Positions 8,775 through 49,238 of a stretch of DNA of 64,000 nucleotides are shown piece after piece. The DNA comes from Buchnera aphidicola (Brachycaudus tragopogonis) (GTDB lineage Bacteria > Pseudomonadota > Gammaproteobacteria > Enterobacterales > Enterobacteriaceae), in NCBI RefSeq assembly GCF_964059175.1, contig NZ_OZ060418.1:579004-643003 (forward strand), read 5' to 3'. The notes below the pieces were generated by a model. It did not search any database. It worked only from the letters and a program-made list of their open reading frames with translations, and had not been told where the DNA came from. The translations under genes were made by a program, and so were the position numbers. Position 1 is the first letter of the stretch. Each line of letters opens with the position of its first letter.

Positions 8775-9466
8775 ATGAAAGATATTTATTTAAAATTTAT
8801 TTTAATAAAAAAAAAATACAAAATATTATTGAAGAAAACAATCTTCCTTTAAAAAATATTAGAATCATAGCAGTAACTAAAAATCAAAATATTAATGTGA
8901 TTAAAGAAGCAATATCAATAGGAATTAAAGAATTTGGAGAAAATTACATACAAGAAAGCATTATAAAAATACAAAAATTAAAAAATTATAAGAATATTAC
9001 TTGGCATTTTATTGGTAAAATACAATCTAAAAAAACTAAATTAATTGCCCAAAACTTTCATTGGTGTCAAACAATTGATCGCAAAAAAATAGCAATTTTA
9101 TTAAATAAACATAGACCTAAAAATTTACCTCGACTGAATGTATTAATACAAATTAATAGTTCTCAAGAAAAAAATAAAAATGGAGTATGTATAAAAGATT
9201 ATAAACAATTAGCAGAAGAAATTTATTTAATGCCTCATCTTAATTTAAGAGGAATTATGGCAATGCCTTCAATTAATAATGATCCTATCATAAATAAAGT
9301 AGAATATAAGAAAATAAAAATTGCTTTTCAAGAACTAAAAAAACAATATATATCAGTAGATACTTTATCATTAGGAACTAGTTTTGATATAAAACAATCG
9401 TTACTTTCTACTAGTAATATGATAAGAATTGGACGCTGTATTTTTAATAAAGAAAAATCATTCTAA
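8775..9466 (+). pseudogene. yggS: PLP-homeostasis protein YggS, one frameshift in poly(A)
   Basis: YggS (PLPBP family) binds pyridoxal phosphate and keeps B6 and amino acid pools in balance. An ATG at 8775 reads MKDIYLKFILIKKK and reaches a run of ten A (8807-8816). Beyond it the frame ends in TAA at 8850. The family sequence continues in the frame gained by one extra A: IQNIIEENNLPLKNIRIIAV, then TKN with the PLP lysine at repaired residue 36, as in E. coli, then FGENYIQES. The repaired protein has 230 residues (E. coli 234). The downstream part is open to the stop and keeps its motifs, so the break is recent, a sequencing error, or bypassed by slippage. A GTG at 8897 opens the second part but would drop the PLP lysine. 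Confidence 0.85.
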
Positions 9467-9495
9467 TCTATATTAACTTTTAAAAAAATATTATT

Positions 9496-10626
9496 ATGTG
9501 TAAATTGCCGCCTATTAGTCTATATATCCATATTCCTTGGTGCTCAAAAAAATGTGGATACTGTGATTTTAATTCATATGTAAGCAAAGAAATTATTCCT
9601 GAAAAAAAATATATTGAACATTTATTAAAAGATTTTGAAAAAGATTTACTTTTAATTTCAAAAAGAGAAATTAATACTATTTTTATTGGTGGTGGGACAC
9701 CTAGTTTATTAAAAAGTTCATCTATAAACAAATTAATTATTGGAATTAAAGAAAGAGCATCAATTTCTCATACTGCAGAAATCAGCATCGAAGCCAATCC
9801 TAAAACAATGGAATATAAACGTTTTATCGATTATAAAAATTCTGGTATTAATCGTTTCTCTTTAGGTATTCAAACATTTAATTCACATTTATTAAAAAAA
9901 ATAGAACGAACATATGATTCAAAAGAAGCAATAGATGCAATCAAAGAAACTAAAAAAATTATTGATAATATTAATTTAGATCTAATGTATGGTTTACCTG
10001 GTCAACGACTAGAAGATGCATTATTAGATTTAAAAAATACCATTCAACATAATCCATCGCATATATCATGGTATCAACTTGGCATCGAACCTAATACCGT
10101 ATTTTATTCTAAAAAAATTCAACTTCCTCATGAAGATTTAATCTTTAAAATGTTAGTACAAGGAGAAAAATTATTAAAACAATCAGGATATCAAAGATAC
10201 GAAATATCTTCATATTCAAAACCAAATTATCAATGTCAGCATAATTTGAATTATTGGAATTTTGGCGATTATATAGGAATAGGTTGCGGTGCTCACGGTA
10301 AAATTACTCAAAAAAATGGAAAAATGTTCAGAACAGTTAAAAACAAAAATATTAATGATTTTTTAGATGGAAATTATCTTAATTCTATAAATCAAGTTCT
10401 TAAAAAAGATCAAATTTTTGAATATTTTATGAATGTTTTTAGATTATATCAACCAGTTTTTAAAAAACATTTTAGAGAAAAAATAAATATAAATGAAATG
10501 ATTATTGAAAAAAAAATTGCAATAGCCATAAAAAAAGGATTTTTAATTAACAAAATGAATTACTGGAATACAACAAAAAAAGGAAAATTTTTTTTAAATT
10601 ATTTATTAGAAATTTTCTTAGACTAA
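9496..10626 (+). CDS. hemW: Heme chaperone HemW (radical SAM)
   Basis: HemW, formerly yggW, is related to the coproporphyrinogen oxidase HemN but acts in heme delivery. The 376 residues compare with 378 in E. coli. The radical SAM motif CSKKCGYC puts the [4Fe-4S] ligands at Cys16, Cys20 and Cys23. IFIGGGTPSLL and the SAM-binding IEANPKTME follow, then LDLMYGLPGQ and RYEISSYSKP. The pattern fits HemW and not HemN, which has a longer N-terminus. It is the last gene of the gshB run and converges on trmB with 10 bases between the stops. Confidence 0.95.
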   Translation: MCKLPPISLYIHIPWCSKKCGYCDFNSYVSKEIIPEKKYIEHLLKDFEKDLLLISKREINTIFIGGGTPSLLKSSSINKLIIGIKERASISHTAEISIEANPKTMEYKRFIDYKNSGINRFSLGIQTFNSHLLKKIERTYDSKEAIDAIKETKKIIDNINLDLMYGLPGQRLEDALLDLKNTIQHNPSHISWYQLGIEPNTVFYSKKIQLPHEDLIFKMLVQGEKLLKQSGYQRYEISSYSKPNYQCQHNLNYWNFGDYIGIGCGAHGKITQKNGKMFRTVKNKNINDFLDGNYLNSINQVLKKDQIFEYFMNVFRLYQPVFKKHFREKININEMIIEKKIAIAIKKGFLINKMNYWNTTKKGKFFLNYLLEIFLD

Positions 10627-10636
10627 AGACAATCTC

Positions 10637-11356
10637 TTAGTATTGTAACTGAAACATTAAATCAAAAATCTTATTACCTTGATCGCATCCTCTTCTTTCA
10701 AACTTAGTTATTATACGTGAAACAGGTCGTACGATAAAATTGTTTTGTTTTGATAAATTAATATAATTTGTAATATTTTTTATTTTTTCTAATATGTAAA
10801 AAGCATAATCTTCTGAATCAGTAGCAATATGTAATCTACCGCCAATAATCAATTTTTTAGATAAAGACCTTAAAAAATTGCTTTGTAATAGTCTTCTTTT
10901 ATGATGACGTTTTTTTTTCCAAGGATCTGGAAAAAAAATTTGGACTGTTGATAAAGTTCGATTCATAATCATATTATCGATAACTTCAACCACATCATAA
11001 TAAATAATTCTTAAATTTTTAATTTTAGAAATATAAGCAAAATTTAAACAAGATCCTATTCCTGATTTATATACTTCTATCCCCAAAAAATTTTTATTAG
11101 GAAAATTTTTTGCAGTTTGAACTAAAGACTCTCCTGAACCAAAACCAATCTCCAATACAATCGGAGCTGAACAATTGAAAATAGACAAAAAATTTAATTC
11201 CTTTAATTGAAAATCAATTCCAATAAAAGACCAATATTTTTCAATTGATTTCATTTGACATTTAGTAATACGACCTTTACGACAAACAAAACTACGAATT
11301 TGACGTAAAAAAGTACCATTTTGATCATATTGAGGTGTTATAATATTATTTTTCAT
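10637..11356 (-). CDS. trmB: tRNA (guanine-N7)-methyltransferase
   Basis: TrmB uses S-adenosylmethionine to methylate G46 in the variable loop of tRNAs. The 239 residues equal E. coli TrmB. The SAM-binding motif LEIGFGSGESLVQTA is near residues 70-84, and the diagnostic FFPDPWKKKRHHKRR and HIATDSEDYA carry substrate-binding residues. It is next to mutY in divergent orientation, as trmB and mutY are in E. coli. The start is the only ATG that fits the family. Confidence 0.96.
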   Translation of the reverse strand: MKNNIITPQYDQNGTFLRQIRSFVCRKGRITKCQMKSIEKYWSFIGIDFQLKELNFLSIFNCSAPIVLEIGFGSGESLVQTAKNFPNKNFLGIEVYKSGIGSCLNFAYISKIKNLRIIYYDVVEVIDNMIMNRTLSTVQIFFPDPWKKKRHHKRRLLQSNFLRSLSKKLIIGGRLHIATDSEDYAFYILEKIKNITNYINLSKQNNFIVRPVSRIITKFERRGCDQGNKIFDLMFQLQY

Positions 11357-11476
11357 ATCTAATTACTGTTTTTATTTTAATTAAATTAATTTTTATTTAA
11401 TTATACTAGAAAAGTATTAATATTTTATTTTTTTTAAGCTTAACTGTAAATTTTTACAAAAAATGGTTTTATTATA

Positions 11477-12523
11477 ATGACAATATACTCTTTTTCACAA
11501 TTAGTTATAAACTGGTACCATGAAAACGGTAGAAAAAATTTACCATGGCAAAAAAATAAAACATTATATATTGTCTGGATATCTGAAATCATGTTACAAC
11601 AAACTACAGTAAAATCTGTTATTCCATATTTTAAAAAATTTATATCAACTTTTCCAAATATAAAATCTCTCAATAATAGCACATTAGATGAAGTTTTATA
11701 TTTATGGAGTGGTCTTGGATATTATAGTAGAGCTAGAAATATTTACAAATCAGCTCAAATTATTACTAATAAATATGAAGGAATTTTTCCTAGTAATTTT
11801 TCAGATGTTATCAAACTACCAGGAATAGGGAGATCTACAGCAGGAGCAATTTTATCATTATCATTAAATTTTTTTTACCCTATCTTAGATGGTAATGTAA
11901 AAAGAGTTTTAATTCGATATTATGGCATAACAGGATCTGTAAAAGATAAAAAAATAGAAAAAAAGTTATGGTCTATAATAGAAACGATCGCACCAGTACA
12001 TAATACCGGAACATTTAATCAGGCGATGATGGATATAGGTGCATTAATTTGTCTTCATAAAAATCCAAAATGTGGTATTTGTCCATTAAGTAAAAGATGT
12101 ATTGCAAAAATAAAAGAACAATGGGAACATTATCCTTTAAAAAATACTAAAAAAATATTTACTATAAAAACATCTTGGTTTATTTTAATAAAATTTAACG
12201 ATACATTTTGGATGGAAAAAAACACAAAAAAAGAAATTTGGAAAAATTTATTTTGTTTTCCAAATTTTGATACTAAAGAAATTGCACTAAATTGGTTAAA
12301 AGAAAATAAAATTAATACAAATAAATATGAAAAAATGACACCTTTTTTTCATAAATTCAGTCATTTTATTTTATATATTTATCCTATTTTAATTCAATTA
12401 TCTTCTTTAAAATTTTATAAAAAAAATAAGATTGGCCTTTGGTATAATGTAAAAAAACCTCAACGTATAGGTTTACCGAAACCTGTGCAAACAATACTAC
12501 ACAATCTTATGAAAAATATTTAA
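11477..12523 (+). CDS. mutY: Adenine DNA glycosylase MutY
   Basis: MutY removes adenine mispaired with 8-oxoguanine. The 348 residues compare with 350 in E. coli. Catalytic Glu37 lies in ISEIMLQQTT and Asp138 in ILDGNVKRVL. The helix-hairpin-helix is LPGIGRSTAGAI. The [4Fe-4S] cluster ligands are Cys192, Cys199, Cys202 and Cys208, all at the same numbers as in E. coli. The C-terminal NUDT1-like domain is present but divergent. yggX follows after about 20 bases, as in E. coli. The gene is fully open, unlike mutL. Confidence 0.97.
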   Translation: MTIYSFSQLVINWYHENGRKNLPWQKNKTLYIVWISEIMLQQTTVKSVIPYFKKFISTFPNIKSLNNSTLDEVLYLWSGLGYYSRARNIYKSAQIITNKYEGIFPSNFSDVIKLPGIGRSTAGAILSLSLNFFYPILDGNVKRVLIRYYGITGSVKDKKIEKKLWSIIETIAPVHNTGTFNQAMMDIGALICLHKNPKCGICPLSKRCIAKIKEQWEHYPLKNTKKIFTIKTSWFILIKFNDTFWMEKNTKKEIWKNLFCFPNFDTKEIALNWLKENKINTNKYEKMTPFFHKFSHFILYIYPILIQLSSLKFYKKNKIGLWYNVKKPQRIGLPKPVQTILHNLMKNI

Positions 12524-12544
12524 AAAAAGGAATATAAAAAAATC

Positions 12545-12778
12545 ATGTGTCGTATAATTTTTTGTACATTTCTAAAAGAAAAATCTGAAGGTCAAGATTT
12601 TCAAGTTTACCCAGGAACATTAGGAAAAAAAATATATAATGAAATTTCTAAAAAAGCATGGGAAAAATGGATAGTTCAACAAACAATTTTAATAAATGAA
12701 AACAAACTGAATATGTTTAACTTAGAAGATCGTAAAAAAATAGAAAAACATATGACGCTGTTTTTATTTAAGAAATAA
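12545..12778 (+). CDS. yggX: YggX, iron trafficking / oxidative protection protein
   Basis: YggX is a small protein linked to protecting iron-sulfur clusters from oxidation. The 77 residues are shorter than the 91 of E. coli. The alignment is close through [19 protein letters not shown], the [18 protein letters not shown] helix and [10 protein letters not shown], and the protein then stops at FLFKK. About 14 residues of the C-terminal tail are missing. AAAAAAGGAA lies a few bases before the ATG. It is co-directional with mutY and murI. Confidence 0.95.
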
Positions 12779-12852
12779 ATTTATACTGTATAAAATGATT
12801 ATTTTTTTATATTTTATATAAAACTCTTCATCTATTAAAAAAATAAAAAAAA

Positions 12853-13632
12853 GTGCTTATATTTGATTCTGGTATAGGTGGTTTATCTATATTAAACCAT
12901 ATAAAAAAAATATTACCAAATATGAATTATATTTACATGTTAGATAATCAAGCTTTTCCTTATGGAAATAAAAAAAAATCTTTCATCATTGAAAGAAGTA
13001 TAACAATTATTCAGACAATAAAAAAAAAATATCCTATTAAAATGGTCATAATTGCATGTAACACAGCAAGTACTATAGGATTATCTATTTTAAGGAAAAA
13101 ATTTACTTTTCCTATTATCGGAATATTTCCTGATATTAAATCTGCCAAACAACTAACTAAAAATAAAATTATTGGTTTAATAGCAACAAGAGCAACTATT
13201 CATTCTTATTATACTAAGAACATAGTCTATCATAATGATGATAATTTTATTAAAATAATAGCTACAAATAAATTAGCTTTAATAGCAGAAAAAAAAATAA
13301 GAGGTGTCGTTGCTAAAAAAAAAGAATTACAAAAAATATTTAAAATATGGACTACTCTTTCGGTACAACCTGATACAATTATATTAGGTTGCACCCATTT
13401 TTTATTTTTAAAAAAAGAAATTAAAGAAATTTTATATAAATCTATCTATTTTATCGATTCAACAGAAAAAATGGTATGTGAAATTAAAAAATGTTTAAAA
13501 CAATTAAATATAAAACAAAATATAAAAGAAAATATCATTTTTTATTCAAAAAAAAATGATAATTTTAAACAATTATTGTCTTGTTTAAAAAAATATTGCT
13601 TTCAAAAAATAAAATATATTAATTTAAATTAG
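12853..13632 (+). CDS. murI: Glutamate racemase
   Basis: MurI makes D-glutamate for peptidoglycan. The two catalytic cysteines are in ACNTAS (Cys69) and LGCTH (Cys180), counting from the GTG at 12853, and the substrate loop is FDSGIGGLS. This gives 259 residues against 285 in E. coli, whose N-terminal extension is not conserved. The GTG is the first usable start: an in-frame TAA lies three codons upstream, and eight A residues precede it with no Shine-Dalgarno. The true start may lie in another frame before the A run, so the N-terminus is uncertain. The last 14 bases overlap the end of the convergent sbcB. Confidence 0.9.
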   Translation: MLIFDSGIGGLSILNHIKKILPNMNYIYMLDNQAFPYGNKKKSFIIERSITIIQTIKKKYPIKMVIIACNTASTIGLSILRKKFTFPIIGIFPDIKSAKQLTKNKIIGLIATRATIHSYYTKNIVYHNDDNFIKIIATNKLALIAEKKIRGVVAKKKELQKIFKIWTTLSVQPDTIILGCTHFLFLKKEIKEILYKSIYFIDSTEKMVCEIKKCLKQLNIKQNIKENIIFYSKKNDNFKQLLSCLKKYCFQKIKYINLN

Positions 13633-15064
13633 AATATTTATCCAATAAATCCTTATACTTATCTAGACTATATTTCAATAAACAATTAAGCAAAATAATT
13701 TTTTCTGAATTAAAACAATATTTTTTTAATAAATCTTCAATTTTATTTTGATAGTTTTTTAATGAAACCGGTTGTATAATTTCAAAACAATGTTTTAACC
13801 ATATCTTTTTTTCATCATTATTTAATAATTCAAAAAAATTACGAGCACGATAACGAAAAAACAAAATTTTTAAACGAGAATCATGAAAATCAAAATTAAT
13901 ATTTTTTAAAAAAATCGGTTCAGTCTCTCTAACAATTTTTATATTTTTTTTATCAGATAAATTAAAAAAAGAATCATAGATTTGCAAATCTACGTTTAAA
14001 GATTGTTTATTATTAATTTCTTGCGAAAAAATAATTTGTATCTTTTTAATAAAACCTTTATTTTCTTTTAAATATTTAATTTTTCTATGATATAAATCGA
14101 TATTTATTTTTAATCTATTACAATCTTCTTTACGAAGAACTGTCATAGGTGCTAAAACAGGACAACGATTAAGATATAGTAATACTATACCTAAATTAAA
14201 TAAATGTTTAATATTATTGTATTTGTAAGTTATTTTTTTACAGAATAATATTATTTTCTCTATATCTTTGAATAAATCAATAGAAATTAATATATTTCTA
14301 TTATTTTTATGCCAAATTATAGGAATAATACAAGTCATATTATGACGCACAGAACCGAAATAACTAGAAACATACACTATTGGTTGATTATTTTTTAAAT
14401 TAATTAATTTATATAATTCATTTTTTTTTCTATTTTTGAAAAAAAAATCGAATAATTTCGGTTGATTTTTTTTTATAAGTTTTGCTATTTTAATAGTAGC
14501 ATGTACATCTGATAGGGCATCATGTGCATTTATATGTCTAATATTATTAATCTGTGTTAAATTAGAAAGTTTGAAGTTAGGTAGTCCTAATTCATTTTTA
14601 GGCCATTTTATACCATTTGGTCTTAAAGCATAACATGCTCGTATTAGGTTTAATAGATCCCAACGAGAATTACCATTCTTCCAACTCCATTCATAGGGAT
14701 CAAAAAAATTTCTATAAAATATATTTCTTGTAATTTCATCATCAAAATTAATATTATTATAACCGATAACACAAGTATTCGGAACTGTTAAAATATCGTA
14801 TATTTTTTTAGAAAAATAATATTCATTAGTCCCATATTTTTGTGTATATTGAGGAGTAATTTTAGTAATTAAAACAGAAATAGGATCGGGTAAATAATCA
14901 TCTGACGGAAAACAATAAAAACACTCTGGATAATCAATTACATTTAAATTAATATCTGTTCTAATACATGCAAATTGAGCTGGTTTATCTAGTGATGTAT
15001 CTATTCCAAAAGTCTCATAATCGTAAAACAAAAAAGTAGGTTCTTTTTCTTTAAAAAGTATCAT
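13619..15064 (-). CDS. sbcB: Exodeoxyribonuclease I
   Basis: Exonuclease I degrades single-stranded DNA from the 3' end during repair and recombination. The 481 residues compare with 475 in E. coli. The DnaQ-like domain begins FLFYDYETFG with Asp15 and Glu17 as metal ligands. INAHDALSDVHATI and GYNNINFDDE carry other active-site residues. The C-terminal SH3-like and helical domains align weakly but run full length, ending in ...CLLKYSLDKYKDLLDK. It is divergent from tmaR over 70 bases; in E. coli sbcB and yeeX are also close. Confidence 0.95.
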   Translation of the reverse strand: MILFKEKEPTFLFYDYETFGIDTSLDKPAQFACIRTDINLNVIDYPECFYCFPSDDYLPDPISVLITKITPQYTQKYGTNEYYFSKKIYDILTVPNTCVIGYNNINFDDEITRNIFYRNFFDPYEWSWKNGNSRWDLLNLIRACYALRPNGIKWPKNELGLPNFKLSNLTQINNIRHINAHDALSDVHATIKIAKLIKKNQPKLFDFFFKNRKKNELYKLINLKNNQPIVYVSSYFGSVRHNMTCIIPIIWHKNNRNILISIDLFKDIEKIILFCKKITYKYNNIKHLFNLGIVLLYLNRCPVLAPMTVLRKEDCNRLKINIDLYHRKIKYLKENKGFIKKIQIIFSQEINNKQSLNVDLQIYDSFFNLSDKKNIKIVRETEPIFLKNINFDFHDSRLKILFFRYRARNFFELLNNDEKKIWLKHCFEIIQPVSLKNYQNKIEDLLKKYCFNSEKIILLNCLLKYSLDKYKDLLDKYSNLN

Positions 15065-15134
15065 TAGTTTTTTATTTTATTAAGTATAAATATCAAAATT
15101 TTAAAATTTAAAATAAACATAAAAGGTTTATAAA

Positions 15135-15443
15135 ATGGCAGATACAAAAAAATCGTTTAAAAATGTGTTAGAATTTGTTCATAAATTTAGAAGAAAAAAT
15201 AAAATTAAAAGAGAAATATGTGATATCGAAAAAAAAATTAGAGATAATCAAAAAAGAATATTACTTTTAGATAATCTTAGTCAATACATTACATCAGAAA
15301 TGAATTATGATGAAATTAAAAAAATAATTTTTATGATGAAAAACGATTATGAAGATAGAGTAGATGACTATATTGTTAAAAGCGCAGAATTGTCAAAAGA
15401 AAAAAGAAATCTATCAAAAGATTTAAAAATGATTATTGATTAA
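15135..15443 (+). CDS. tmaR: TmaR (YeeX), polar regulator of PTS enzyme I
   Basis: This 102-residue protein is the ortholog of E. coli YeeX, renamed TmaR, which clusters PTS enzyme I at the cell poles and limits its activity. The sequence is highly conserved: [17 protein letters not shown], then the coiled-coil [20 protein letters not shown] and [19 protein letters not shown]. Tyr72, the residue whose phosphorylation is required in E. coli, is kept at the same position. Only the end differs. Finding a sugar-uptake regulator in so reduced a genome is unusual. The mannitol permease gene mtlA is 14 kb away. Confidence 0.93.
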
Positions 15444-15476
15444 AAATATATACAAATTTTAAAAAAATATTTTTTT

Positions 15477-18681: not shown

Positions 18682-19023
18682 TTATTTTTTTTCTTTTTTA
18701 TCATCCTTTAGCTTCATGATAGGAGATAATTCAGTTATTTCTTTTTTCGTACTCATAATCATATTTCTAAGAATCATATTATTAAAACGAAACTCTGTTT
18801 CTAAAATATTAATAATTTTAGGATCAACTTCTATATTCATTAATACATAATGTGCTTTATGTAATTTATTAATTGAATAAGATAATTGACGTCTACCCCA
18901 ATCTTCTAATCGATGTATTGTACCAGAATTTTCGTGAATAATTTTTTTACATTTTTCTATTATTAATGACACTTTATCACTTTGATCAGGATGAATCATC
19001 AATATTATTTCATAATGACGCAT
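18682..19023 (-). CDS. rpsF: Ribosomal protein bS6
   Basis: bS6 pairs with bS18 on 16S rRNA helices 22 and 23. The 113 residues cover the whole fold: [16 protein letters not shown], the [16 protein letters not shown] strand and the [10 protein letters not shown] segment. E. coli S6 is longer because of an acidic tail that receives extra glutamates from RimK; here the tail is replaced by a short lysine-rich end. AAGGAG lies about 8 bases before the ATG. It is first in the operon, downstream of rnr. Confidence 0.96.
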
Positions 19024-19049
19024 TTATAGTGCTCCTTTTGGATTTTTTA

Positions 19050-19088
19050 GCTTCCTTATCAAATAATATAGCTATTTCCCAAGGAAGC
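19050..19088 (-). promoter_or_regulatory. Leader hairpin before rpsF
   Basis: Read leftward, GCTTCCTT (19088-19081) and AAGGAAGC (19057-19050) form a perfect 8-bp stem enclosing 23 bases. The stem ends about 26 bases before the rpsF ATG, and a perfect TATAAT lies just upstream at 19110-19105. In many bacteria the S6:S18 complex represses its own mRNA through a stem in the rpsF leader. I cannot confirm the conserved internal motif of that element here, and the stem could instead terminate rnr transcripts. Confidence 0.4.
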
Positions 19089-19190
19089 AAGGAACTTTTT
19101 TTAAATTATAGCTAATTTTTTATATATTATTTTACTTTTTAATAAAAATCAATATAATTTGATTATTTAATGATAAAAAAATACAAGTTT

Positions 19191-25054: not shown

Positions 25055-26017
25055 TTATTGATTTTTTTCTTGAAGTAAATTCAATACTTTTTGAACTAAA
25101 ACATCAATAGGAGAGTCAGATAGCATTCTATTAACATTTTTCCATTTTTTTAACCATGTCAATTGATTTTTAGCAAGTTTTCTTGTTGCATAAATTATCT
25201 TATCAAACATTTCTTTGTAACTAGTTTTGTATTCAAGATATTCCCACATTTGACGATATCCTATGCATCGCATGGCAGGTAAGTTTATATGTAAATCTCC
25301 TCTAAAAAAAAGATTTTCTACTTCTTCTTGAAAACCTAAAGTCAACATTTTTTTGACACGACATTCGATTTTATTATTTAACCATTCTTTATTCGGGGGT
25401 ATAATAGCAAACTGTAAAATATTATATGGTAATTTATAGTTATTGTTTTTTTTTAATTCTGTTACATTCTTTCCAGAAAGATAAAATATTTCTAAAGCTC
25501 TTAATAATCTTTGAAAATCATTTTTATGAATTCGTATGGCAGAGGCAGGATCTATCAACTCTAATTTTTTATATAAGAAATTTTTTCTATGATTGTTTTG
25601 GAGCAAATATTCACGAATTTTTATACTAGCTGGTGGCAAAATAGATAGTCCATTTAATAATACATTGTAATAAAACATTGTTCCACCTACAAGACAAGGT
25701 ATTTTACCCAAATTAATAATTTTATCAATTTCTTTAAGAGCATCTTTTTGAAATTCTACAGCTGAATAATTTTCACTAGGATCTCTAATATTTAACAAAC
25801 GATGGGGATGACGATATAAATCAAAAAGACTTGGTTTGGCTGTGCCAATATTCATTTCACGATAAATTAAAGCAGAATCTACACTAATCAACTCTATTGG
25901 TAAGTATTTTCTAAGATGAATAGCAAATTGACTTTTTCCACATGCAGTTGGTCCCATTAAAAATAAAACTAGAGGGATTTTTTTTCGGTTTTTAAAATTC
26001 ATACTTTTAACATACAT
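25055..26017 (-). CDS. miaA: tRNA dimethylallyltransferase MiaA
   Basis: MiaA adds the isopentenyl group to A37 of tRNAs reading UNN codons. The 320 residues compare with 316 in E. coli. The P-loop FLMGPTACGKS (residues 19-29), VDSALIYREMNIGTAKP, LVGGTMFYYNVLL and MRCIGYRQMWEYL match the family. The first ATG and one five codons later are both plausible. The gene start overlaps the end of mutL by about 19 bases, so expression is probably coupled. The mutL-miaA order is as in E. coli. Confidence 0.96.
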   Translation of the reverse strand: MYVKSMNFKNRKKIPLVLFLMGPTACGKSQFAIHLRKYLPIELISVDSALIYREMNIGTAKPSLFDLYRHPHRLLNIRDPSENYSAVEFQKDALKEIDKIINLGKIPCLVGGTMFYYNVLLNGLSILPPASIKIREYLLQNNHRKNFLYKKLELIDPASAIRIHKNDFQRLLRALEIFYLSGKNVTELKKNNNYKLPYNILQFAIIPPNKEWLNNKIECRVKKMLTLGFQEEVENLFFRGDLHINLPAMRCIGYRQMWEYLEYKTSYKEMFDKIIYATRKLAKNQLTWLKKWKNVNRMLSDSPIDVLVQKVLNLLQEKNQ

Positions 26018-27746
26018 AACGCTGTATTAATATTAATTTTTTGTAACAATTTAGGTGGAGGATTTTTTAAAAATAAAGGAAAAAAATATTCAAGATCTAA
26101 TAAAACTGACATGCCATCTGCATAATTCCAGTTTTTTAATTCCATAAAAATATGCTTATAAAACCAATTTATGATATCTGAAATTAACACTGTTTCTTTA
26201 AACAATAAGAATACAAAAAATTTTGATATCAATATATTAATATTATTTTTTTTAAAAAAACAAGGGATTGAACTTAAAATAATATATTTTTTTTTAAAAA
26301 TTAAATTAAATCCAAATTTCCACAATACTACTTTGTTTTTAAAAAATATGCTGTATTCTTTAGAGGTAAGATTAATTTTAATATTAGTCAAGATATATTT
26401 AGGTATTATTTTTTCATTGATATTTATTTCTAATTGATGCTTTTTCACAATTCCTTGAGCAAAAGGAAATGAAATTAATGAAAAGTTATCATCATGAACA
26501 ATTAAACCATAATACTTATGAACAACTATTAATAAGTTTCCAAAAGAAAAACAATCTTTTTGTTTATATTTTTTAGATATAAAACTATTATCTTTTTTTT
26601 TATTCCATTATTATTTTGAGATAAAACATATTTTTTAGAAAAATGTAAAGACATTAATGTAAGAAATTTCAAATAAAACGATTCTAAACATTTTTTTTTA
26701 TTTTTTTCTAAATTATTCGTTTCAAATAAAAAATAACTTAAAAAATATTTTTCTTTAGATTGTTTTAGATGAAACAAAATAGCTTCATAAATAAAAATGT
26801 AAATCTTATTAGACTCATGAAAGTTAATTTCGTTTTTAGTAGGATGGATGTTAATATCAATTTTATTAGGAGGTATTTTTAAATACAATACAAATGATAT
26901 ATTTTTATATTCTTTTATTTTTTGATAAGCAGAACGAATAGAATTTATAATATTATTGTTACGAATATATCTTTTATTAACATAAAAATATCTAATATTA
27001 TTTAAATTTTGAAGAGATTGAGGATGTGATATCCATCCAAATAATGAAATATCATCTATTTTTGATTCTACCTGTATCAGATTACTGATATTAAAAGTAC
27101 TGAATACGTCTTTTAATCTATTTTTTTTATACTTTACAGCATTATATTGTAAAACTACATTCTTATTATGTTTTAATGAAAAATTTATGTCACAATAAGA
27201 CAAAGCTATTTTTTTAATTATTTCAAAAATCTTTAAAAGTTCTAATTTTTCATTTTGTATAAATTTAAGACGAACTGGAATATTATAAAACAAGTTTTCC
27301 ACTATAATAGTAGTGCCTTTAGGATGCGCTATTGGTTCTAATATAACATCTTTATCATACATAAAACCTTCTGAATATATCTTCCAACCGATGTTATTTG
27401 AAGAATTACAGGATATTAAAGTTAATCTTGAAATAGCTCTAATACTAGCTAAAGCTTCTCCTCGAAATCCAAAAGTACTGATTACCTCTAAATCTGATAA
27501 TGCATTAATTTTACTAGTAGCATGTCTAGTAATTGCAAGCAATAATTCTTTTTTATTAATACCACAACCGTCATCTTTTAAAAGAATAGACTGAAATCCA
27601 CTTTTATTAATTTCAATATTAATATTTTTTGAACCAGCATCTATGCTATTTTCTATGATTTCTTTAATAACTGAAGCTGGCCGTTCAATAATTTCTCCAG
27701 AAGAAATTTGATTTGATAAATCAAGTGGTAATACATGAATAGTCAT
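25999..27746 (-). pseudogene. mutL: DNA mismatch repair protein MutL, one frameshift in poly(A)
   Basis: MutL links mismatch recognition by MutS to downstream repair. The first frame (27746 to 26529) has the GHKL ATPase with Glu29 and Asn33 (VIKEIIENSIDAGS), Asp58 in DDGCGIN, and GFRGEALASI. It ends 405 codons in. The second frame, from the linker to 25999, reads FGNLLIVVHKYYGLIVHDD and ends LKNPPPKLLQKININTALC, the MutL C-terminal dimerisation domain. The frames meet at nine A (complement of 26593-26601); one more A joins them into about 582 residues (E. coli 615). The frame between 26529 and 26448 is open and conserved, so the C-terminal part starts well above the ATG at 26448. Broken, or rescued by slippage. 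Confidence 0.87.
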
Positions 27747-33820: not shown

Positions 33821-34682
33821 ATGAATTGTTATAATTCCTACAAGTGGATAATATTTTTTATTTTTTTAGTCGCATTGCCAATTCAAGCTAATAATAAAAA
33901 AAATATTTTATTAAAAAACAATTCAAAAAAACTGTTTATTTTTAAAAAAAAATAAATTTAATAAAATACATAAGAATAATTTATTAAAAAAAATTATTAT
34001 AGCAATAGATGCAGGACATGGAGGACAAGATCCAGGCGCTATTGGTCATAAAGGATTACAAGAAAAAAAAGTTAATATTGAAATCGCACTTCAAATTAAG
34101 AAATTGCTAAACAATAATAAAATGTTTCATGCAATTCTAACACGTAATAATGACTATTATCTTTCACTTAAAAAAAGAAGACAATTTCTTACAAATAATC
34201 AAATAAATTTATTAATTTCTATTCACGCAGACTCTTCTAAAAAACAATATATATCAGGAGCATCTGTATGGATAATTTCCAATGCTAGAATGAATCGTGA
34301 AATTAATAATTATTTAAAAAATAACAAATCCATAGTATCTTTTTCTAAAAATATTCAAAATATATTTAACCAAAATAAATACGATATATTTTTAAAAAAA
34401 ACTATTCTTGATTTACAGTTTAATAATTTTCGAAAAATAGAGTTAGATTTATCTAAACATATACTTGAACAACTAAAAAAAAATATAAAACTACACAAAA
34501 TACATCCAAATTATGCTAGTTTAGGAATATTAAGTTGTATTAATATACCTTCTATATTAATTGAAACTGGTTTTATTACAAATTTTGTAGAAGAAAAAAA
34601 ACTAAGAACAACAGATTACCAAAACAAAATTGCTCAATCTATTTACTTAGCTTTAAGAAATTATTTTTCAAATTCGACTTAA
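33821..34682 (+). pseudogene. amiB: N-acetylmuramoyl-L-alanine amidase AmiB, one frameshift in poly(A)
   Basis: AmiB cuts the peptide from peptidoglycan during daughter cell separation. The ATG at 33821, after AAAGGAAAAAAT, starts a clear signal peptide (MNCYNSYKWIIFFIF, cleavage near IQA). The frame ends at TAA just after nine A at 33944-33952. With one A fewer the frame continues to the amidase_3 domain: IAIDAGHGGQDPGAIGHKGL with the zinc His and Glu, SIHADSS with the second His, and ILIETGFITN with the catalytic Glu, ending at 34682. The repaired protein has 286 residues against 445 in E. coli and lacks the LysM repeats. An in-frame TTG at 34104 leaves only part of the domain, without the first zinc ligands. 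Confidence 0.85.
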
Positions 34683-40736: not shown

Positions 40737-42160
40737 TTATTTTTTCAAAAAATGCGAATATTTCATGACTGGTGCATCTTTTAGAGGGATAACAACAGTT
40801 GCACGTATTCCAAAAGATTTATATTTTGCAATATTATTATTATTTTTTATATCTAAATCAGATAAATTAGTGGCAACTAATTTAATCGAACCATCATCTA
40901 GTTGATCTATTTTATAAATATTTCTAGAGTTTTTGATTTGATATTCATTAATTTCTGGATTTTCAGAAACTAATTGAAGATAAGATTGATATAAAAATTT
41001 TTGATTCGCATATGTAGAAATTAATTTTTGAAAATTAGATTCTGGTATGATTTTTTGAAAATCTTGAATCATTTGTGTTCTATTATTTAAATTAATAAAA
41101 TTGTCATTTATAATAAAAAGAAATGGATGAGAATCATTCATAAACTGATTATCTAATTCATTAGATAATTTTAAATTTTCATAATGTTTTTGAAAATTTT
41201 TAATTGTAAATGAAATATTTTCTAAAGAATTCAATTGATCTGAAACTTGCCATAAATCATGATTAACAAAGTTATTATAATAAGATTCTTGAACACTTTT
41301 ATTCATTCTTTCTTTAAAAGTTTTATCTATCTTTAAAATATTTTTTCTTCCTTCTAAATCAAAATTCTCATCGAATCTTGTCGTAGAATAGAAATTATTT
41401 TTATTATCGTGAGTTTTAGCTGGAGCATTGAGAAGATCAGGAAATGAACTTTGATATTCAGGATGTGTTGGATTATTATTTAATTGATTAATAATTTTTA
41501 TTTTGCCTTGAGAACGAATTTTATCAATGATGGCTTTTATAAAAATTTTTGATGATTCGATAGTTTTTTTAAGGTCTTCAATATTTTTTTTTAAAGATTC
41601 AATTGACTCTTGATTAGAGTCTGATTTTACATCTTGAAAAAATAGTTTTTTAATAGTTTTTCCATTAAATAAATCTATAGTTTCTGTTTTTACAGTTTCA
41701 TAAGTTGTGACAACAGTGTTTTTTATTGTCTCAAGAATATCTTCAGTAATCTTTAAAATATCAAAATCAAAGAATTTTTTATTAAAAAAATATGGAGAGA
41801 AATTATTTAGAATTTTTTTTTCATCAACATATCTTGAACGATATAACTTTTTTTATTATCATTAATTATTTTTTGTGAATCTTTTTCTAAAAAAAAATTA
41901 TCTTTTATATTATATTTCTTAAGTATGTTGTCTTGAGCATTTTGTTCTAAAATTTTTAATAAAATTAAAGAATCTTCATAATATGTTTTTTCTAAATTTG
42001 TTGAATGTTTTTTATCTTGGAATACTTCAAAATTTTTATTTTTTTTAATTTCTTGCTGTTTGTTGAATATTTTTTCAAGAATTTTAGGATCAAAATCTAT
42101 TTTATTTCTAGATTTTTTATTTGTCGGATCTATTGAAGTAATTAAGAAATTAGATGACAT
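40737..42160 (-). pseudogene. Unrecognised hydrophilic protein, one frameshift in poly(A)
   Basis: I do not recognise this gene. Frame one starts at 42160 (MSSNFLITSIDPTNKKSR) and ends after 117 codons with MLMKKKF, at nine A (complement of 41813-41821). With one more A it joins a second frame (ILNNFSPYFFNKKFFDFD...) that is open for about 357 codons to 40737, ending VIPLKDAPVMKYSHFLKK. The repaired protein has 474 residues. It is very rich in Lys, Asn, Ile and Asp, has no signal peptide or clear membrane helix, and likely coiled coil near repaired residues 160-215 (SLKKNIEDLKKTIESSKIF). The second frame has no ATG before MNKSVQESYY at 41306. No domain or motif is known to me. A strong terminator closes its 3' end, which suggests real transcription. 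Confidence 0.7.
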
Positions 42161-42384: not shown

Positions 42385-43125
42385 ATGAAAGTATACTTGT
42401 CATTTAAATACTATAATCAAAGAATATGTAATTTAATTAATGTACTTGATTTAAAACATGATGAACATTGTTCAATAGGTTTAATAATTAATTCTAATTC
42501 TTTGGAATTATATGATCGAAACAATATTGAACAAAAATCTATAAAAGTTGATTTCACTTCAAAAAAAAATAATTATAGATGTAATTTTTTTAGAAAAAAA
42601 AATGAAATTTTATATAAAGCTGTAGGAATAAAAAAATCTTATTTTCCTATTGTTTTAGATGCAACTGCAGGATTAGGAAACGATGCTTTTATACTTGCTT
42701 TTCTTGGATGTCAAGTAATTATGATAGAACGTCATCCAATAATTGCTGCTTTATTACAAGACGGTTTACAAAGAGGTTATCAAGATAAAAAAATAGGGAA
42801 CTGGTTAAAAAAAAGATTACATTTAATTTTAAATGATAGTTTTAATATATTGAACACACCTTTTATACAACCAGATGTCATTTATTTAGACCCTATGTAT
42901 CCTTTAAATAAAAAAAAATCTTTGCCAAAAAAAAATATGCAAATTTTTAGAAATTTAATAGGACAAGACGAAGATGCTGAAGAATTATTAAATCTTGCTC
43001 AAAAAAAAGCGAAAAAAAGAGTAGTTGTAAAACGTCCTTGTTATGCAAAATCTTTATCTCAAGACAAACTAAGTTTTATTGTATTAGGGAAAAAGCATCG
43101 TTTCGATATCTATAATACTTTTTAA
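42385..43125 (+). CDS. rsmJ: 16S rRNA m2G1516 methyltransferase RsmJ
   Basis: RsmJ (YhiQ) methylates G1516 in 16S rRNA using S-adenosylmethionine. The 246 residues compare with 250 in E. coli. The SAM motif VLDATAGLGNDAFILA is near residue 92, MIERHPIIAALLQDGLQR next, and the catalytic VIYLDPMYP near 171. The N-terminal part is diverged. The start ATG lies in an A-rich context (AAAGAAAAAAAT). It converges with pitA; E. coli yhiQ is also close to pitA. Confidence 0.95.
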   Translation: MKVYLSFKYYNQRICNLINVLDLKHDEHCSIGLIINSNSLELYDRNNIEQKSIKVDFTSKKNNYRCNFFRKKNEILYKAVGIKKSYFPIVLDATAGLGNDAFILAFLGCQVIMIERHPIIAALLQDGLQRGYQDKKIGNWLKKRLHLILNDSFNILNTPFIQPDVIYLDPMYPLNKKKSLPKKNMQIFRNLIGQDEDAEELLNLAQKKAKKRVVVKRPCYAKSLSQDKLSFIVLGKKHRFDIYNTF

Positions 43126-43136
43126 ATAAAAAAAAC

Positions 43137-43165
43137 AGGAGTACATATTTTTTACACGTACCCCT
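43137..43165. terminator. Hairpin between rsmJ and pitA
   Basis: AGGAGTAC (43137-43144) pairs with GTACCCCT (43158-43165) with one A-C mismatch and a 13-base T-rich loop. It lies between convergent genes, 11 bases after the rsmJ stop and about 41 bases from the pitA stop. It probably ends transcription from at least one side. Confidence 0.45.
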
Positions 43166-43206
43166 ATTGAAAAAAATATTATTAATAATTTTACTAAAAT
43201 TAATAC

Positions 43207-44679
43207 TTATATTAAAAATAATGCAATCCAATATAAAAAACTAGATAAAAAAATTGACACTGGTAAAGTTAATATCCATGCTAAAGCAATATTTTTAATA
43301 GTCTTAATTTGAATTCCATCACCATCTATTAGCATTGTACCTGCTACAGAAGATGAAAGAATATGAGTAGTGGAAACTGGTATACCTGTATAACTTGCTA
43401 TTCCAATAGATAAAGAAGCTGTTATTTGAGCAGACATAGCTTGAGCATATGTCATTCTTTTTTTACCTATTTTTTCACCAATAGTAATAACAATTCTCTT
43501 CCATCCTATCATTGTCCCTATTGATAAAGATAAAGCAACAATTAATATAATCCACATTGGTGCATACTCAATAGTTTGTAGTATATCTTTTTTACTTTTA
43601 ATCAAAAAATATTTATCTTCAGAATTAATTTCAGAAGTATTGATAGTTTGCTCAATTATCTCAGAAATACATAACAAAAAGTGACGTAATTCAAATCTTT
43701 TCTTAATATTTAATGTATTGTAATCTGAAGTATTTTCTAGTAACAATTTAGATTGTTGAATGTTTTTTATAATATTAGAATAGGAATAATGAATATTTAA
43801 ATCATTAACAATATTTTTATTGTCTATTTTTTTCAAAGTATTTTTATCATATTTTAAATAGTATTTTTCTAAATTATTAATTGTGTTTTTTGTACAAATA
43901 ATTTCATATTTATTAGCATTTAAATTAACTAAAAAAGAAGACGGTATAATTCCTATTAAGACTAACATTATTAATCCAATCCCTTTTTGACCATCGTTTG
44001 CACCATGGGCATAACTCACTCCAATAGACGATAAAATTAATGCTGTTCGTATTAATAATGGCGGATTTTTTTTTCCATCTATTTTTTCACGTTCTAATGG
44101 TGTCATATGAATACGAAAAAACATTTTATTATTTTTCAAATAAAATCGTAATAAAAAAATTAAAGTTCCAGCTACTATTAATCCAACAATAGGAGAAAAA
44201 ATAAGAGATAAAAACACGTTTGTCATTTTTGGAACATTTAATGCATTTACTAAAGATGCACCAGTAACCATTGCGTTAGTTAGACCTATTCCAATAATTG
44301 CTCCGATAAGGGAATGTGAACTAGATGCAGGCAAACAGAAATACCAAGTAAATAAATTCCATAGTATTGCTGCTAATAGCATGGAAAAAACCATAGCTAG
44401 AGCGTTTTTTGAAGTTGTATTTAATAATAAATCATTTGGTAATAAATGCACAATAGCATAAGCAACAGTTAAACCTCCAAGTAAAACACCTAAAAAATTA
44501 AATACACCAGACATTATAACTGCAATATTTGCAGACATTGCTCGCGTATAAATTAAAGTAGATACTGCATTGGCTGTATCATGAAAACCATTAATAGCTT
44601 CATAAAATAAAACAAAAAATAAAGCTAAAAAAATAAATAAACTATGATTCAAATCAGAATAAGAAAATAAATATAGCAT
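43207..44679 (-). CDS. pitA: Low-affinity inorganic phosphate transporter PitA
   Basis: PitA imports metal phosphate with protons through the inner membrane. The 490 residues compare with 499 in E. coli. The signature repeats are [18 protein letters not shown] near residue 31 and [18 protein letters not shown] near 220, with [18 protein letters not shown] near 432. About ten hydrophobic segments are seen, and the central hydrophilic loop (about 255-370) is Asn and Lys rich. The start may be the first ATG. In an intracellular symbiont it is probably the main phosphate importer (inference). Confidence 0.96.
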
Positions 44680-44818
44680 AATCTTTAAGCCATTTTGATG
44701 AATTGAATTAAGCTTATTATCTGTGAGAAACTATGTTTGAGGAAAGTAAAATATGAATATTATTTATATCAAATTATTTATAATAATATTTTTATGTAAA
44801 AACATAAAAAATTTATTA

Positions 44819-46039
44819 TCAAATGTTATTTTTTTTTAATTTATAAGATAGAAAAATACCTAAAAATAACATGATTAAAATAAAAATTGAAATTCCAGAC
44901 CATTTAAAATGGTACCAAAAAAATCCACCAAATGTGCCAAATACACTAGAACCTAAATAATAAAAAAATAAATATAAAGATGTAGCTTGAACTTTAGCAA
45001 TTTTTGTATAAGAACCAACCCAACTACTGGCAATAGAATGCGATGCAAAAAAACCACCAGAAAATATGATTAAACCTAAAATTATTATTAATAATTGATC
45101 AAATTGTGTAATAAAGATACCTGTTACCATCAAAAGTAATGATATAAAAAGAATATCATTACGATGATATTTATTAATTAATATACCAGCTTTAGGAGAA
45201 CTATATACTCCTGTCAAATAGATAATAGATAACAATCCTATACTAGATTGGCATAAAAAAAATGGTTTTAATATTAATCGATAACCAATATAATTAAAAA
45301 TAGTAACAAAGCTTCCCATTAATATAAAACCTATTACAAAAAGTACAAATAATGCTGGATTCTTTAATTGTAGATAAAAACGATTTAAAAATTGAGAAAA
45401 ATTAATAGAAACAGAATAAAAATTTTTAGATTGAGGTAAGAAATATAAAAAAAAACAAGAGGATATTAAAGAAATTATTCCAATTATCATTAACGCAATA
45501 TTCCATGAAAATTTTTCAGATAAAATACTACTCATTAATCTTCCAGAACATCCACCTATAGTATTTCCACTAATATATAGCCCCATACAAAAAGATAAAG
45601 AATTAGGATGTATTTCTTCGCTAATATATGTCATAGCAACAGCAACAACACCGCTTAATGCCAAACCAGTTAACGCTCGTAATAAAACAATAGCAGTCCA
45701 GCTGGTCATCGTTGAACATATTATTGTTAATATTGCAGCTATAAATAAAGAGACGGACATGATAGACTTTCTGCCAATAACATCAGATAACGGTCCAGTA
45801 AAAATCATTCCTACAGCCATCATGCCAGTTGCAGCAGAAAGAGAAAAACTACTTTCTGCGGGAGTTAAATAAAATTGTTTAGAAAATATCGGTAAAATTG
45901 ATTGTACACAATACAAGATAGAAAAAGTAGAAAAACCACCTGAAAAAAGAGCTATAAAAACTTGATTAAATTTTTTTGTATTTTTTTTTATGTATTCTTT
46001 TTTTTCTAATTTCTTTTTTGTTTTTTTTAAAAATGTCAA
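44819..46039 (-). CDS. ynfM: MFS transporter YnfM (TTG start)
   Basis: This major facilitator protein aligns with E. coli YnfM along its length: LYCVQSILPIFSKQFYLTPA, FTGPLSDVIGRKS, SEEIHPNSLSFCMGLYISGN and FFASHSIASSWVG. Twelve hydrophobic segments are seen. I set the start at the TTG at 46037-46039, because AGGAG lies exactly 7 bases upstream and homology begins soon after; this gives 406 residues. The longest frame starts at ATG 46096 inside dapF with no ribosome site. YnfM substrates are poorly known (arabinose export has been suggested), so its cargo here is open. It is probably co-transcribed with dapF. Confidence 0.9.
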   Translation of the reverse strand: MTFLKKTKKKLEKKEYIKKNTKKFNQVFIALFSGGFSTFSILYCVQSILPIFSKQFYLTPAESSFSLSAATGMMAVGMIFTGPLSDVIGRKSIMSVSLFIAAILTIICSTMTSWTAIVLLRALTGLALSGVVAVAMTYISEEIHPNSLSFCMGLYISGNTIGGCSGRLMSSILSEKFSWNIALMIIGIISLISSCFFLYFLPQSKNFYSVSINFSQFLNRFYLQLKNPALFVLFVIGFILMGSFVTIFNYIGYRLILKPFFLCQSSIGLLSIIYLTGVYSSPKAGILINKYHRNDILFISLLLMVTGIFITQFDQLLIIILGLIIFSGGFFASHSIASSWVGSYTKIAKVQATSLYLFFYYLGSSVFGTFGGFFWYHFKWSGISIFILIMLFLGIFLSYKLKKNNI

Positions 46040-46067
46040 AATATAACTCCTTTTTGAATAAAAAATT

Positions 46068-46922
46068 TTAGATATATATATATCCATCATAAACATGTTG
46101 TGCAGGTCCTATCATATAAAGAGGATTTCCAAAACCTTTCCATTCTATAAATAATTTTCCACCTGGTAAATCTACTTCAACATTGTTGAAAAGTAAATTT
46201 TTTACAATGCCAACTGCAACTGCAGCGCAGGCACCAGTTCCACATGACTGTGTTTCACCTACATCACGTTCATAAACCCTTAATTTAATATGATTTTTAT
46301 TAACGATTTCCATAAAACCTATATTTACGCCCTGTAAAAAAATTGAGTTGTTTTCTATAGCTTGACTAATAAGGTTTACAGGAGCTGTTTTAATGTTTTG
46401 TACTTGAATAACACAATGCGGATTTCCAGTAGATACTATACTGCATTTTAAACTATCATTTAAAATATTCACTGAAAAATTTTTACATAAAATATTTTTT
46501 GACAACTCTATATTATCTAGTTTAAAATCTGGTTCTTCCATATTAACTTTAATCATGTTTTTTTCTATAAAATGAATAAATAAATGTCGTTTTTTAGTAC
46601 TAACGGAAATAGTTTTTTTATTAGTTAATTTTTTTAATAAAAGAAAAAGGCCAAAACATCGAGCACCATTTCCACATTGTTCAACTTCATTTCCATTAGA
46701 ATTAAAAATTCGATAATTAAAGTCAAACAAAGAATCATATGACTTATCTACAAGTAATAACTGATCAAAACCAATGCCAGTATATCGATTAGATAATTCT
46801 TTTATCATTTCAGATGATGGATTAAATGTCTGATTAAGACAATCTACAATCATAAAATCATTACTTAAACCATGCATTTTAGAAAAATAAATTTTTTTTT
46901 TGTAATTACCATATGAAAACAT
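46068..46922 (-). CDS. dapF: Diaminopimelate epimerase
   Basis: DapF converts LL- to meso-diaminopimelate, used for lysine and for peptidoglycan. The catalytic cysteines are in CGNGARC (Cys83) and [13 protein letters not shown] (Cys227). The protein has 284 residues against 274 in E. coli, because of a nine-residue extension before [18 protein letters not shown] 5 bases before the ATG supports this start. NPHCVIQV and [12 protein letters not shown] are also conserved. ynfM follows on the same strand. Confidence 0.97.
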
Positions 46923-47028
46923 ATTATCACCTATAAATAATTTAATATTTTTTGTAAAAATAAAATGATTTTTTAATGATACAAAAAGTTTTTTTATATT
47001 TTAAACTTATTTCAAAAAAATTAAAAAA

Positions 47029-47391
47029 ATGGTTATCCTTATGAAACGAAAAATAATTCTAAAAAAAAATGTCAACAATTTTTATATATTAATAGACGAG
47101 TTATTTTTAAAAATTGAAGATAATTTAAATTTCTATTCTAATAATATTGATATTGATTACGAAATCCAAGATTATGTTATGACTATTACTTTTGCAAATA
47201 AAAGTGTTATTATTATTAATAAACAGGAATCATTGCAACAAATATGGTTAGCTACAACAGTAAATGGATATCATTTTAATTATAAAGAAAATAAATGGAT
47301 TTGTAATCGTAGTAATAAAGATTTTTGGGAAATATTAGAATATTCGTGTTCTATTCAATCAAATAAAAATATTATTTTTTATAAAAAATAA
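47029..47391 (+). CDS. cyaY: Frataxin-like protein CyaY
   Basis: CyaY binds iron and modulates iron-sulfur assembly by IscS. The 120 residues compare with 106 in E. coli. The acidic helix carries [13 protein letters not shown], and the beta sheet has [39 protein letters not shown] and [15 protein letters not shown] second ATG four codons in is possible; the first ten or so residues have no E. coli counterpart. It is followed by hemC. Regulated partners IscS and IscU are at 57-59 kb. Confidence 0.95.
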
Positions 47392-47506
47392 TTTTAATAA
47401 AATACAAAAAAATTTTATATAAAAATAAAAAAATATGATAAGGTTTTGTATCTTTTTTAAAATTAAAATATATAAAAAATATATCTATATTAAAATAAAT
47501 AGTAAT

Positions 47507-48451
47507 ATGCAAAATAAAACATTAAGAATTGCTACTAGAAAAAGTCCTTTAGCATTGCAACAAACAGAATATGTTCAAAAAAAAATACTGTCTTTATATC
47601 CAGATTTAAATATAAAATTAGTACCTATCGTTACTCATGGAGATAATATTTTAAAAAAATCTCTTTCAAAAATTGGAGGAAAGGGATTATTTATAAAAGA
47701 ATTAGAACTTGCACTTCTTGAAAATAAAGCAGATATTGCCATTCATTCTATGAAAGATCTTCCAGTTAATATTACAAAAGAACTATGTTTAGTTAGTATA
47801 TGTAAAAGAGGAAATGCTTTAGATACACTAGTATCTAATCATTATCAATCTATTAATCAATTACCTCCAGGTGCAATAGTTGGAACATCTAGTTTAAGAA
47901 GACAATGTCAATTAATTACTTATAGACCAGATTTAATTATTTCCCCTGTAAGGGGCAATGTAGAAACAAGAATAGCTAAGTTAGATGAAGGCAAGTATGA
48001 TGCGATCATTCTTGCTACTGAAGGGTTAAATAGATTAAGCTTAAAACATCGTATAACTCAAATTATACCAGCTGAACTGTCTCTTCCTTCTTGTGGTCAA
48101 GGTGCAATTGGAATTCAATCTAGATTACATGATAAAAAAGTATTATTTTTTTTATCTCGTCTTAATCATATAAATACTTTTATTGAAATTAATGCAGAAC
48201 GTGCTTTTTGTAGAAAGTTAGAATCGGGATGTCAAATTCCTATTGGAAGCTATGCTATTCTAAAAAAAAACAAAATTTGGTTAAGAGGACTGATAGGCTC
48301 ACCTAATGGAAAAATAATATTAAAAGGGGAAAGGATAGGTTATTATAATACAGGAGAAAAAATGGGATATTCACTTGCTGATGAATTACTTAGCAATGGT
48401 GCGCAAAAAATTTTAAATGACCTTCATATAAAACAATCTTATTGTATATGA
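47507..48451 (+). CDS. hemC: Porphobilinogen deaminase (hydroxymethylbilane synthase)
   Basis: HemC links four porphobilinogens into hydroxymethylbilane in heme synthesis. I place the start at the ATG at 47507 ([19 protein letters not shown]), giving 314 residues against 313 in E. coli; an earlier ATG at 47435 adds a lysine/isoleucine-rich leader without homology. Catalytic Asp84 is in HSMKDLP and the cofactor-binding Cys242 in ESGCQIPIG, at the E. coli positions. The stop overlaps the hemD ATG (ATGA), so translation is coupled. Confidence 0.97.
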
Positions 48452-49238
48452 AAATACTAGTCATGCGTCCTTCACCTACAGGAGAAGAATTAGTAAAAAA
48501 TCTTAATGAAATAGGAATATCTTCTTTTCATTTTTCTTTATTTGATTTTTTTCCTAGTACGAGCTTAATAAGCTTATCACAAAAAATTAATACACTATAT
48601 CAATCTAATGTAATCCTTGTTTTTTCAAAAAAATCTATTTTTTATACAAATTTATATTTAAAAAAATATAATTTGCAATGGCCATTACATGCAAAATATT
48701 ATGCTATTGGAGAAAGTACTGCTGCTTTTCTTTACAAATATGTTAAAAAAAAATTATTTTTCCTAAAAAGGAAAACAGTGAAAATTTGTTAAAAATTTTA
48801 TATAGGGATATTTTAAAAAATGATCAAATAGTTTTATTAAAAGGAGAAAATGGACGAGAATTTATAGAAAATAATTTAAAAAAAGAGGGATTTAAAATTT
48901 GTGTTATAGAATGTTATAAAAGAGTTTTAAAAAATTTAGATGGTATGACAGAAGGAAAAAAATGGCGTTTATATAAAATAGATACTTTAGTAGCAACAAG
49001 TGGTGAAATTTTATATCAATTAAAAAATATTATTTCTGATATAGATCAGAAAAAGTGGTTATTTCAATGTCAAGTTTTTGTAGTAAGTAAAAGATTGTCA
49101 AATATAGCAAAAGATTTAGGATGGAAAAATATTATAATATCTAAACGTGCTGATAATAAATCTTTATTAAAAACAATTAAATTTGAATATTTAAAAAAAA
49201 ATATTTTTTTTTCTTTTGGTCGGCGAAAGAGGATTTGA
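48448..49238 (+). pseudogene. hemD: Uroporphyrinogen-III synthase HemD, one frameshift in poly(A)
   Basis: HemD closes hydroxymethylbilane into uroporphyrinogen III. The ATG at 48448 overlaps the hemC stop. Frame one ([19 protein letters not shown] ... KYYAIGESTAAFLYKYVKKK) meets nine A at 48745-48753 and soon stops. With one extra A the reading goes on as IIFPKKENSENLLKILYRD, then LLKGENGREFI, VATSGEIL and WLFQCQVFVVSKRLSNIAKD, in line with E. coli HemD. The repaired length is 263 residues (E. coli 246). The last 22 bases run into tRNA-Pro on the other strand. As heme synthesis has no bypass for this step, either the product is rescued by slippage or the pathway is failing. Confidence 0.86.

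Follow-up and report, generated by a model that had tools for sequence, protein, structure and literature searches.

Genes broken at poly(A) runs and probably kept in use by transcript slippage in Buchnera aphidicola

Rescue of broken genes by slippage at poly(A) runs was reportedly described in Buchnera and Blochmannia by Tamas et al. (2008), and Wernegreen et al. (2010) are said to have found ancient frameshifts in Blochmannia that are maintained by selection. Programmed slippage at nine A (A9) is known from genes of the Thermus dnaX type. Here we set beside these systems five genes, yggS, mutL, amiB, an orphan gene of Buchnera and hemD, each of which is split between two reading frames in a 64,000-nucleotide stretch (hereafter, the window) of the chromosome of Buchnera aphidicola (Brachycaudus tragopogonis), namely bases 579004–643003 of the 643-kb main contig of a 654-kb genome in three contigs. 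The 7.8-kb plasmid of this genome has matches to 46 plasmid records, every one from Buchnera, at 60–90% identity, with the best rows (85.9%) from Myzus persicae. The passages of PMC5009743 that deal with earlier cases put the corrected transcripts at 12–50% and name cell-wall and histidine genes; the same passages mention slippage at a run of nine. Blochmannia frameshifts conserved between populations and species, with no decay, are reported in the available portion of PMC3017870, and the gene models of Buchnera Mp were, according to excerpts of PMC3890641, merged across poly(A) insertions and deletions, the flanks being conserved and the genes judged functional.

The breaks described here resemble those of Tamas et al. 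(2008) in the organism group, the kind of A run and the conservation of the halves, but they affect other genes, and their sharing was tested over 30 or more genomes, from DNA alone. In contrast to the ancient Blochmannia frameshifts, they belong to Buchnera, and one of the genes is broken in 32 of the 34 genomes compared. The likeness to Thermus dnaX lies in the run of nine A and in the expectation of one short and one long product; the gene is different, and the two products are a prediction in our case. The kind of rescue is already known, and hemD and the orphan gene appear to add new cases to it; our literature search found no account of shared breaks in hemD, nadD or the orphan gene, the papers of 2008 and 2010 lying outside that search and possibly overlapping with these cases. 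On the sequence evidence, we consider it probable that slippage of RNA polymerase keeps the genes in use despite an A run that puts them out of frame.

Frame breaks in the window

Frames were followed by three-frame translation and by protein-guided alignment permitting frame changes, in the genome carrying the window (G000) and in a comparison set of up to 35 other Buchnera genomes (labelled G001 upward). All five A runs named in the preliminary description of this DNA were found, with the positions and lengths given there. The hemD gene (48448–49238, + strand), downstream of hemC, changes frame at an A9 (48745–48753, +), and its two halves match positions 2–88 and 108–230 of one Pfam profile, the first scoring slightly under the curated cut-off. 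The orphan gene (40737–42160, − strand) consists of an N-terminal half of about 113 codons and a C-terminal half of about 360 codons in a different frame (hereafter, N half and C half, also for the other genes), with an A9 of the coding strand (41813–41821, −) at the break. The aligned halves of both genes in G000 contain neither a stop nor a second shift, which agrees with the earlier claim that there is no further lesion. The ATG of yggS (8775–9466, +; family Ala_racemase_N), at position 8775, is out of frame with the body of the gene, and a run of ten A (A10; 8807–8816, +) lies at the break. Also in two frames are mutL (25999–27746, −) and amiB (33821–34682, +; family Amidase_3).

The proposal that each break sits at its A run holds to the extent that every one of the five proteins switches frame at or near the run, but the exact site is uncertain in amiB and mutL. 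In amiB, both an A7 (33925–33931) and an A9 (33944–33952) are compatible with the break (33925–33952, +), and in mutL, the nearest A9 of the coding strand is at 26593–26601 (−), the alignment to G026 placing the shift about 20 bases past it, in a poorly conserved linker. By three-frame translation, one extra base restores yggS, mutL, the orphan gene and hemD, and one base fewer restores amiB, just as had been predicted. The 558 kept reading frames of the genome contain 407 coding-strand runs of at least nine A, amounting to 0.67% of the coding bases; the chance that five of five breaks fall at such runs is about 1.3e-11 if breaks are random, a value that is a guide only, the five having been chosen for looking striking.

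Sharing of the breaks among Buchnera genomes

The orphan gene has no Pfam family (both halves searched) and no NCBIfam family (C half searched), and its protein has 28 database matches, every one of which, where an organism name is attached, comes from Buchnera. These include a fused form of 474 residues, the other 27 being 205 to 370 residues long; judging by the fused form, an existing annotation probably already reads through the break. Thirty-four genomes have the C half, and in 32 of these the gene is out of frame (G030 counted as the usual arrangement): 29 need one more base and three (G011, G032 and G035) show the opposite offset. The run is exactly nine A in all 34 by protein-guided count, within a variable environment: between G000 and the others, the N half has just 20 to 45 of 85 residues in common. 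An ATG with AGG upstream opens the N half in 33 of 33 genomes, and MSSN are its first residues in 25 of the 33; the C frame has its first ATG, GTG or TTG at a distance of 25–179 codons beyond the run in 32 of 33 (G017 not scored). The conserved N start and the late start codons in the C frame together point to one obvious ribosome entry, in the N frame. The out-of-frame state of this gene looks fixed across the genomes compared, as if slippage were its normal route of expression. We suggest, tentatively, that the orphan gene might be expressed solely via a fixed A9 slippage site, one start giving a short protein of ~90–150 residues and, after slippage, a fusion of ~475 residues kept by nearly the whole genus, and that HemD might likewise be a hidden working enzyme in most Buchnera.

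Two genomes have orphan genes of other forms. In G016, the A run is unchanged and an extra base farther downstream, relative to the sister genome G028, unites both halves in one frame. In G017, the C half is still open beside a decayed N half, and in this lineage the two may be separable.

The inclusion of hemD had been singled out as noteworthy, and the comparison strengthens the point: PMC3890641, in the part available, calls HemD very rare among Buchnera and treats the step to uroporphyrinogen III as missing in the Buchnera of A. pisum, yet the C half of hemD was matched in 34 of 36 genomes, mostly out of frame (G019 gave no usable match, and G029, where the stretch is all N, is uninformative). 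The gene is out of frame in 25 of the 34, at the same run in 24 and, in G005, at the A9 that follows a few codons later; the offset is the opposite one, at the same run, in G017 and G035. It is in frame and free of lesions in five genomes (G004, G020, G023, G026 and G028). The idea that an in-frame hemD reflects an interrupted run was ruled out, given that the run is lost in just one of these five, the others having nine A (three genomes) or ten (one genome). At its end, in the window at 49193–49293, the hemD frame continues into a tRNA gene of the opposite strand (49220–49293), and a second A9 just before this overlap is kept at a length of at least nine in 0 of 29 relatives.

For yggS, 10 of 30 genomes are out of frame at the A10 (G000, G002, G003, G007, G009, G011, G024, G026, G027 and G029), 19 are in frame and one is degraded. 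The mutL gene was matched in 24 genomes, with open frames of 481–595 codons in 19, of 406 in G000 and of 408 in G009, and three remnants; the frame of mutL in G009 also changes within the same linker, out of register with the A9 of G000. At the amiB break site, G009 has a single frame. Sharing of the run with relatives is not established for mutL and amiB; both may plausibly be rescued in the same way, and both could be recent lesions. The view that the breaks reflect rescue and not decay is accordingly well supported for three of the five genes, hemD, yggS and the orphan gene, because many species have the frame broken at the same run with both halves conserved, and just plausible for the other two. 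The pattern expected of slippage rescue, a single break at a homopolymer of at least nine between halves that are otherwise conserved, is found in these three genes; conservation across species of both the site and the out-of-frame state, as expected of programmed slippage, is found in the orphan gene and, in part, in hemD and yggS.

Retention of the runs was counted for 27 of them (mutL left out) as the number of relatives with at least nine A at the matching place, within the loci compared. The hemD run is kept in 26 of 29 relatives, that of yggS in 25 of 29 and that of amiB in 10 of 29, and the count reached 11 relatives for the orphan gene, all with A9. The 13 runs in other kept coding frames are retained in 21, 12, 0, 15, 19, 15, 9, 10, 4, 8, 2 and 0 of 29 relatives and, for the last one, in 10 of 28; the ten runs outside kept frames are retained in 1/21, 0/29, 0/8, 3/29, 0/17, 1/25, 1/29, 2/29, 21/29 and 13/29. 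The three shared runs are retained in more relatives than the 13 compared coding runs, a contrast to which we attach no P value, the genomes being related and the sample small. Better retention would be expected if a broken gene needs its run. Genome-wide, 208 of 406 runs of at least nine are retained in G009 and 190 of 404 in G026.

Selection was estimated as the Nei-Gojobori ratio of nonsynonymous to synonymous rates (dN/dS) against G009, with 150 sampled frames as background (median 0.19, 90th percentile 0.35). The ratio is below 1 for all ten halves, and six lie within the 90th percentile; the halves are under constraint, partly relaxed.

Slippage and the alternatives

From the breaks, their shared recurrence, the conserved halves and the upstream-frame start of the orphan gene, we infer slippage by RNA polymerase. 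While copying nine or more A, the polymerase would slip, mostly adding one A; a fraction of the mRNA would then have both halves in one frame, and this fraction would yield enough full-length protein. Most often the offset is such that one added A would correct it, as in 29 of the 32 orphan-gene breaks. The available part of PMC5574713 assigns 151 of 157 insertions in Buchnera transcripts to homopolymer runs, increasing with run length up to 11.

Several observations weigh against slippage rescue. The same part of PMC5574713 reports that no frame-restoring transcript error was found, and in the accessible portion of PMC3164680, the majority of the pseudogenes of four genomes, 42 of 69, occur in a single genome each and arose from homopolymer mutations. 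The orphan gene is in one frame in G016, and its N half is decayed in G017. Among the genomes with hemD, 4 of 34 have lost the simple arrangement (other lesions in G001, G010 and G030, degradation in G021), and G008, one of the 24 same-run cases, carries an additional shift. The yggS gene of G002 has an in-frame ATG immediately upstream of the run. Finally, four halves exceed the 90th percentile of dN/dS: orphan N (0.64), hemD C (0.45), mutL N (0.45) and nadD C (0.44).

Among the alternatives, a shift of the ribosome by −1 on the A run, which would produce the same protein as one added A, survives best, and we regard it as unlikely. It fits the commonest offset, and the slipperiness of A runs for ribosomes is discussed in the consulted passages of PMC5009743; the opposite offset, seen in three orphan-gene, two hemD and 4 of 15 nadD cases, does not fit it. 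Folding within 81 bases from the run start, computed in G000 with pseudoknots left aside, is unremarkable (z of −0.29 for hemD, 0.80 for the orphan gene and −0.70 for yggS), which lends no support to structure-stimulated shifting and leaves plain shifting on A unaffected. Some −1 frameshift sites work without a stimulatory structure.

It is improbable, to our mind, that the genes are early pseudogenes in which a run gained or lost a base and decay is to follow. The degradation of hemD in G021, the frame change of mutL in the same linker of G009 and the status of run sharing in mutL and amiB would fit such a history, but the hemD, yggS and orphan-gene breaks recur across the genus with aligned halves free of stops. 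More doubtful still is the possibility that each half is a protein in its own right, with a separate start for the second. In G000, a TTG lies 10 codons downstream of the hemD run, and in G017 just the C half of the orphan gene stays open; against this, the positions of ATG, GTG or TTG codons past the run vary, and re-initiation is unlikely because these start codons are not conserved. Of the 25 genomes with out-of-frame hemD (G021 excluded), 22 have the first such codon of the C frame 10 to 117 codons downstream of the run and three have none in the scanned stretch, and the range in the orphan gene is 25–179 codons; moreover, the hemD halves cover consecutive parts of one Pfam profile. Errors of sequencing or assembly in A runs, which might still apply to mutL and amiB and for which a precedent is the poor 454 data in poly(A) regions of Buchnera reported in the available text of PMC3890641, are scarcely credible as a general explanation, the same out-of-frame runs being present in many separately assembled genomes.

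Breaks elsewhere on the chromosome

A genome-wide census against the references G009 and G026 gave 61 rows, which were filtered by hand; most were discarded as short unproven frames, cases with an uncertain reference start near the first residues, or C-terminal tails. A separate scan for frame changes at A runs gave 93 candidates. At hisA/hisF, tmk/holB, minD/minE and ptsG/hinT (names read from translations), overlapping neighbours at an A run mimic a break, and these were rejected. Outside the window, breaks at A10–A13 were found in nadD, a transglycosylase gene of the EmtA/MltC type, fliK, a lolE-type gene, an NlpD-type gene, murE, murF (for which the reference in G009 is a fragment too) and tsaB (close to the start), and possibly in murC, again close to the start; one half each of fliK and of the transglycosylase was family-tested. 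Two cases are less clear and are not simple A-run breaks: a frame of 150 residues at 183 kb and a FliO-FliP region in which two shifts go in opposite directions. The suggestion that a whole set of such genes within 64 kb is notable is weakened by these 8 or 9 comparable broken genes elsewhere: five breaks per tenth of the chromosome is just moderately dense. For comparison, according to the cited portion of PMC3164680, each of six Aphidinae genomes has 8–18 frameshifts in homopolymers, and two further genomes have 1 and 3.

The nadD gene is out of frame at an A10 in G000 (main contig 490823–490832) and at A9–A12 runs in 14 other genomes. Of 18 genomes read, 15 (preselected for short or split frames) are out of frame and three in frame, with no other lesion; the breaks fall at two runs in the gene (in 6 and 9 genomes), with 11 offsets one way and 4 the other, and 17 other genomes look intact by frame length, G019 being weak. 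Just upstream of the fliK C half, an A13 marks the frame change in G000 (main contig 83622–83634), and the frame changes in G009 and G026 too. The adjacent cell-wall genes murF and murE are both broken, with an A13 at 244190 and an A11 at 245092–245102 of the G000 main contig. An Rfam match to the RpsF leader lies in the window at 19021–19112 (−), with 40.4 bits against a cut-off of 37.

A midpoint-rooted tree of 34 genomes was built on HemC and the C parts of HemD and the orphan protein, that is, on the studied genes themselves, and three of its nodes have support of at most 0.4. In this tree, the out-of-frame state extends to every larger group for the orphan gene and to both large groups for hemD; in-frame hemD occurs in five scattered lineages, and the order of events for hemD is not fixed by the tree. 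The out-of-frame state of hemD, yggS and nadD looks tolerated, given that related genomes show in-frame and out-of-frame forms in a scattered pattern.

Genes of the nadD, murE, tsaB and lolE types are usually considered essential, and their breaks would extend the tolerance to genes of this kind; genes counted as lost from these genomes may still function. The hemD result is relevant to the question whether Buchnera makes its own uroporphyrinogen III for siroheme, and the orphan gene, with its fixed A9, would offer a clean test of whether slippage in the symbiont is tolerated or built in.

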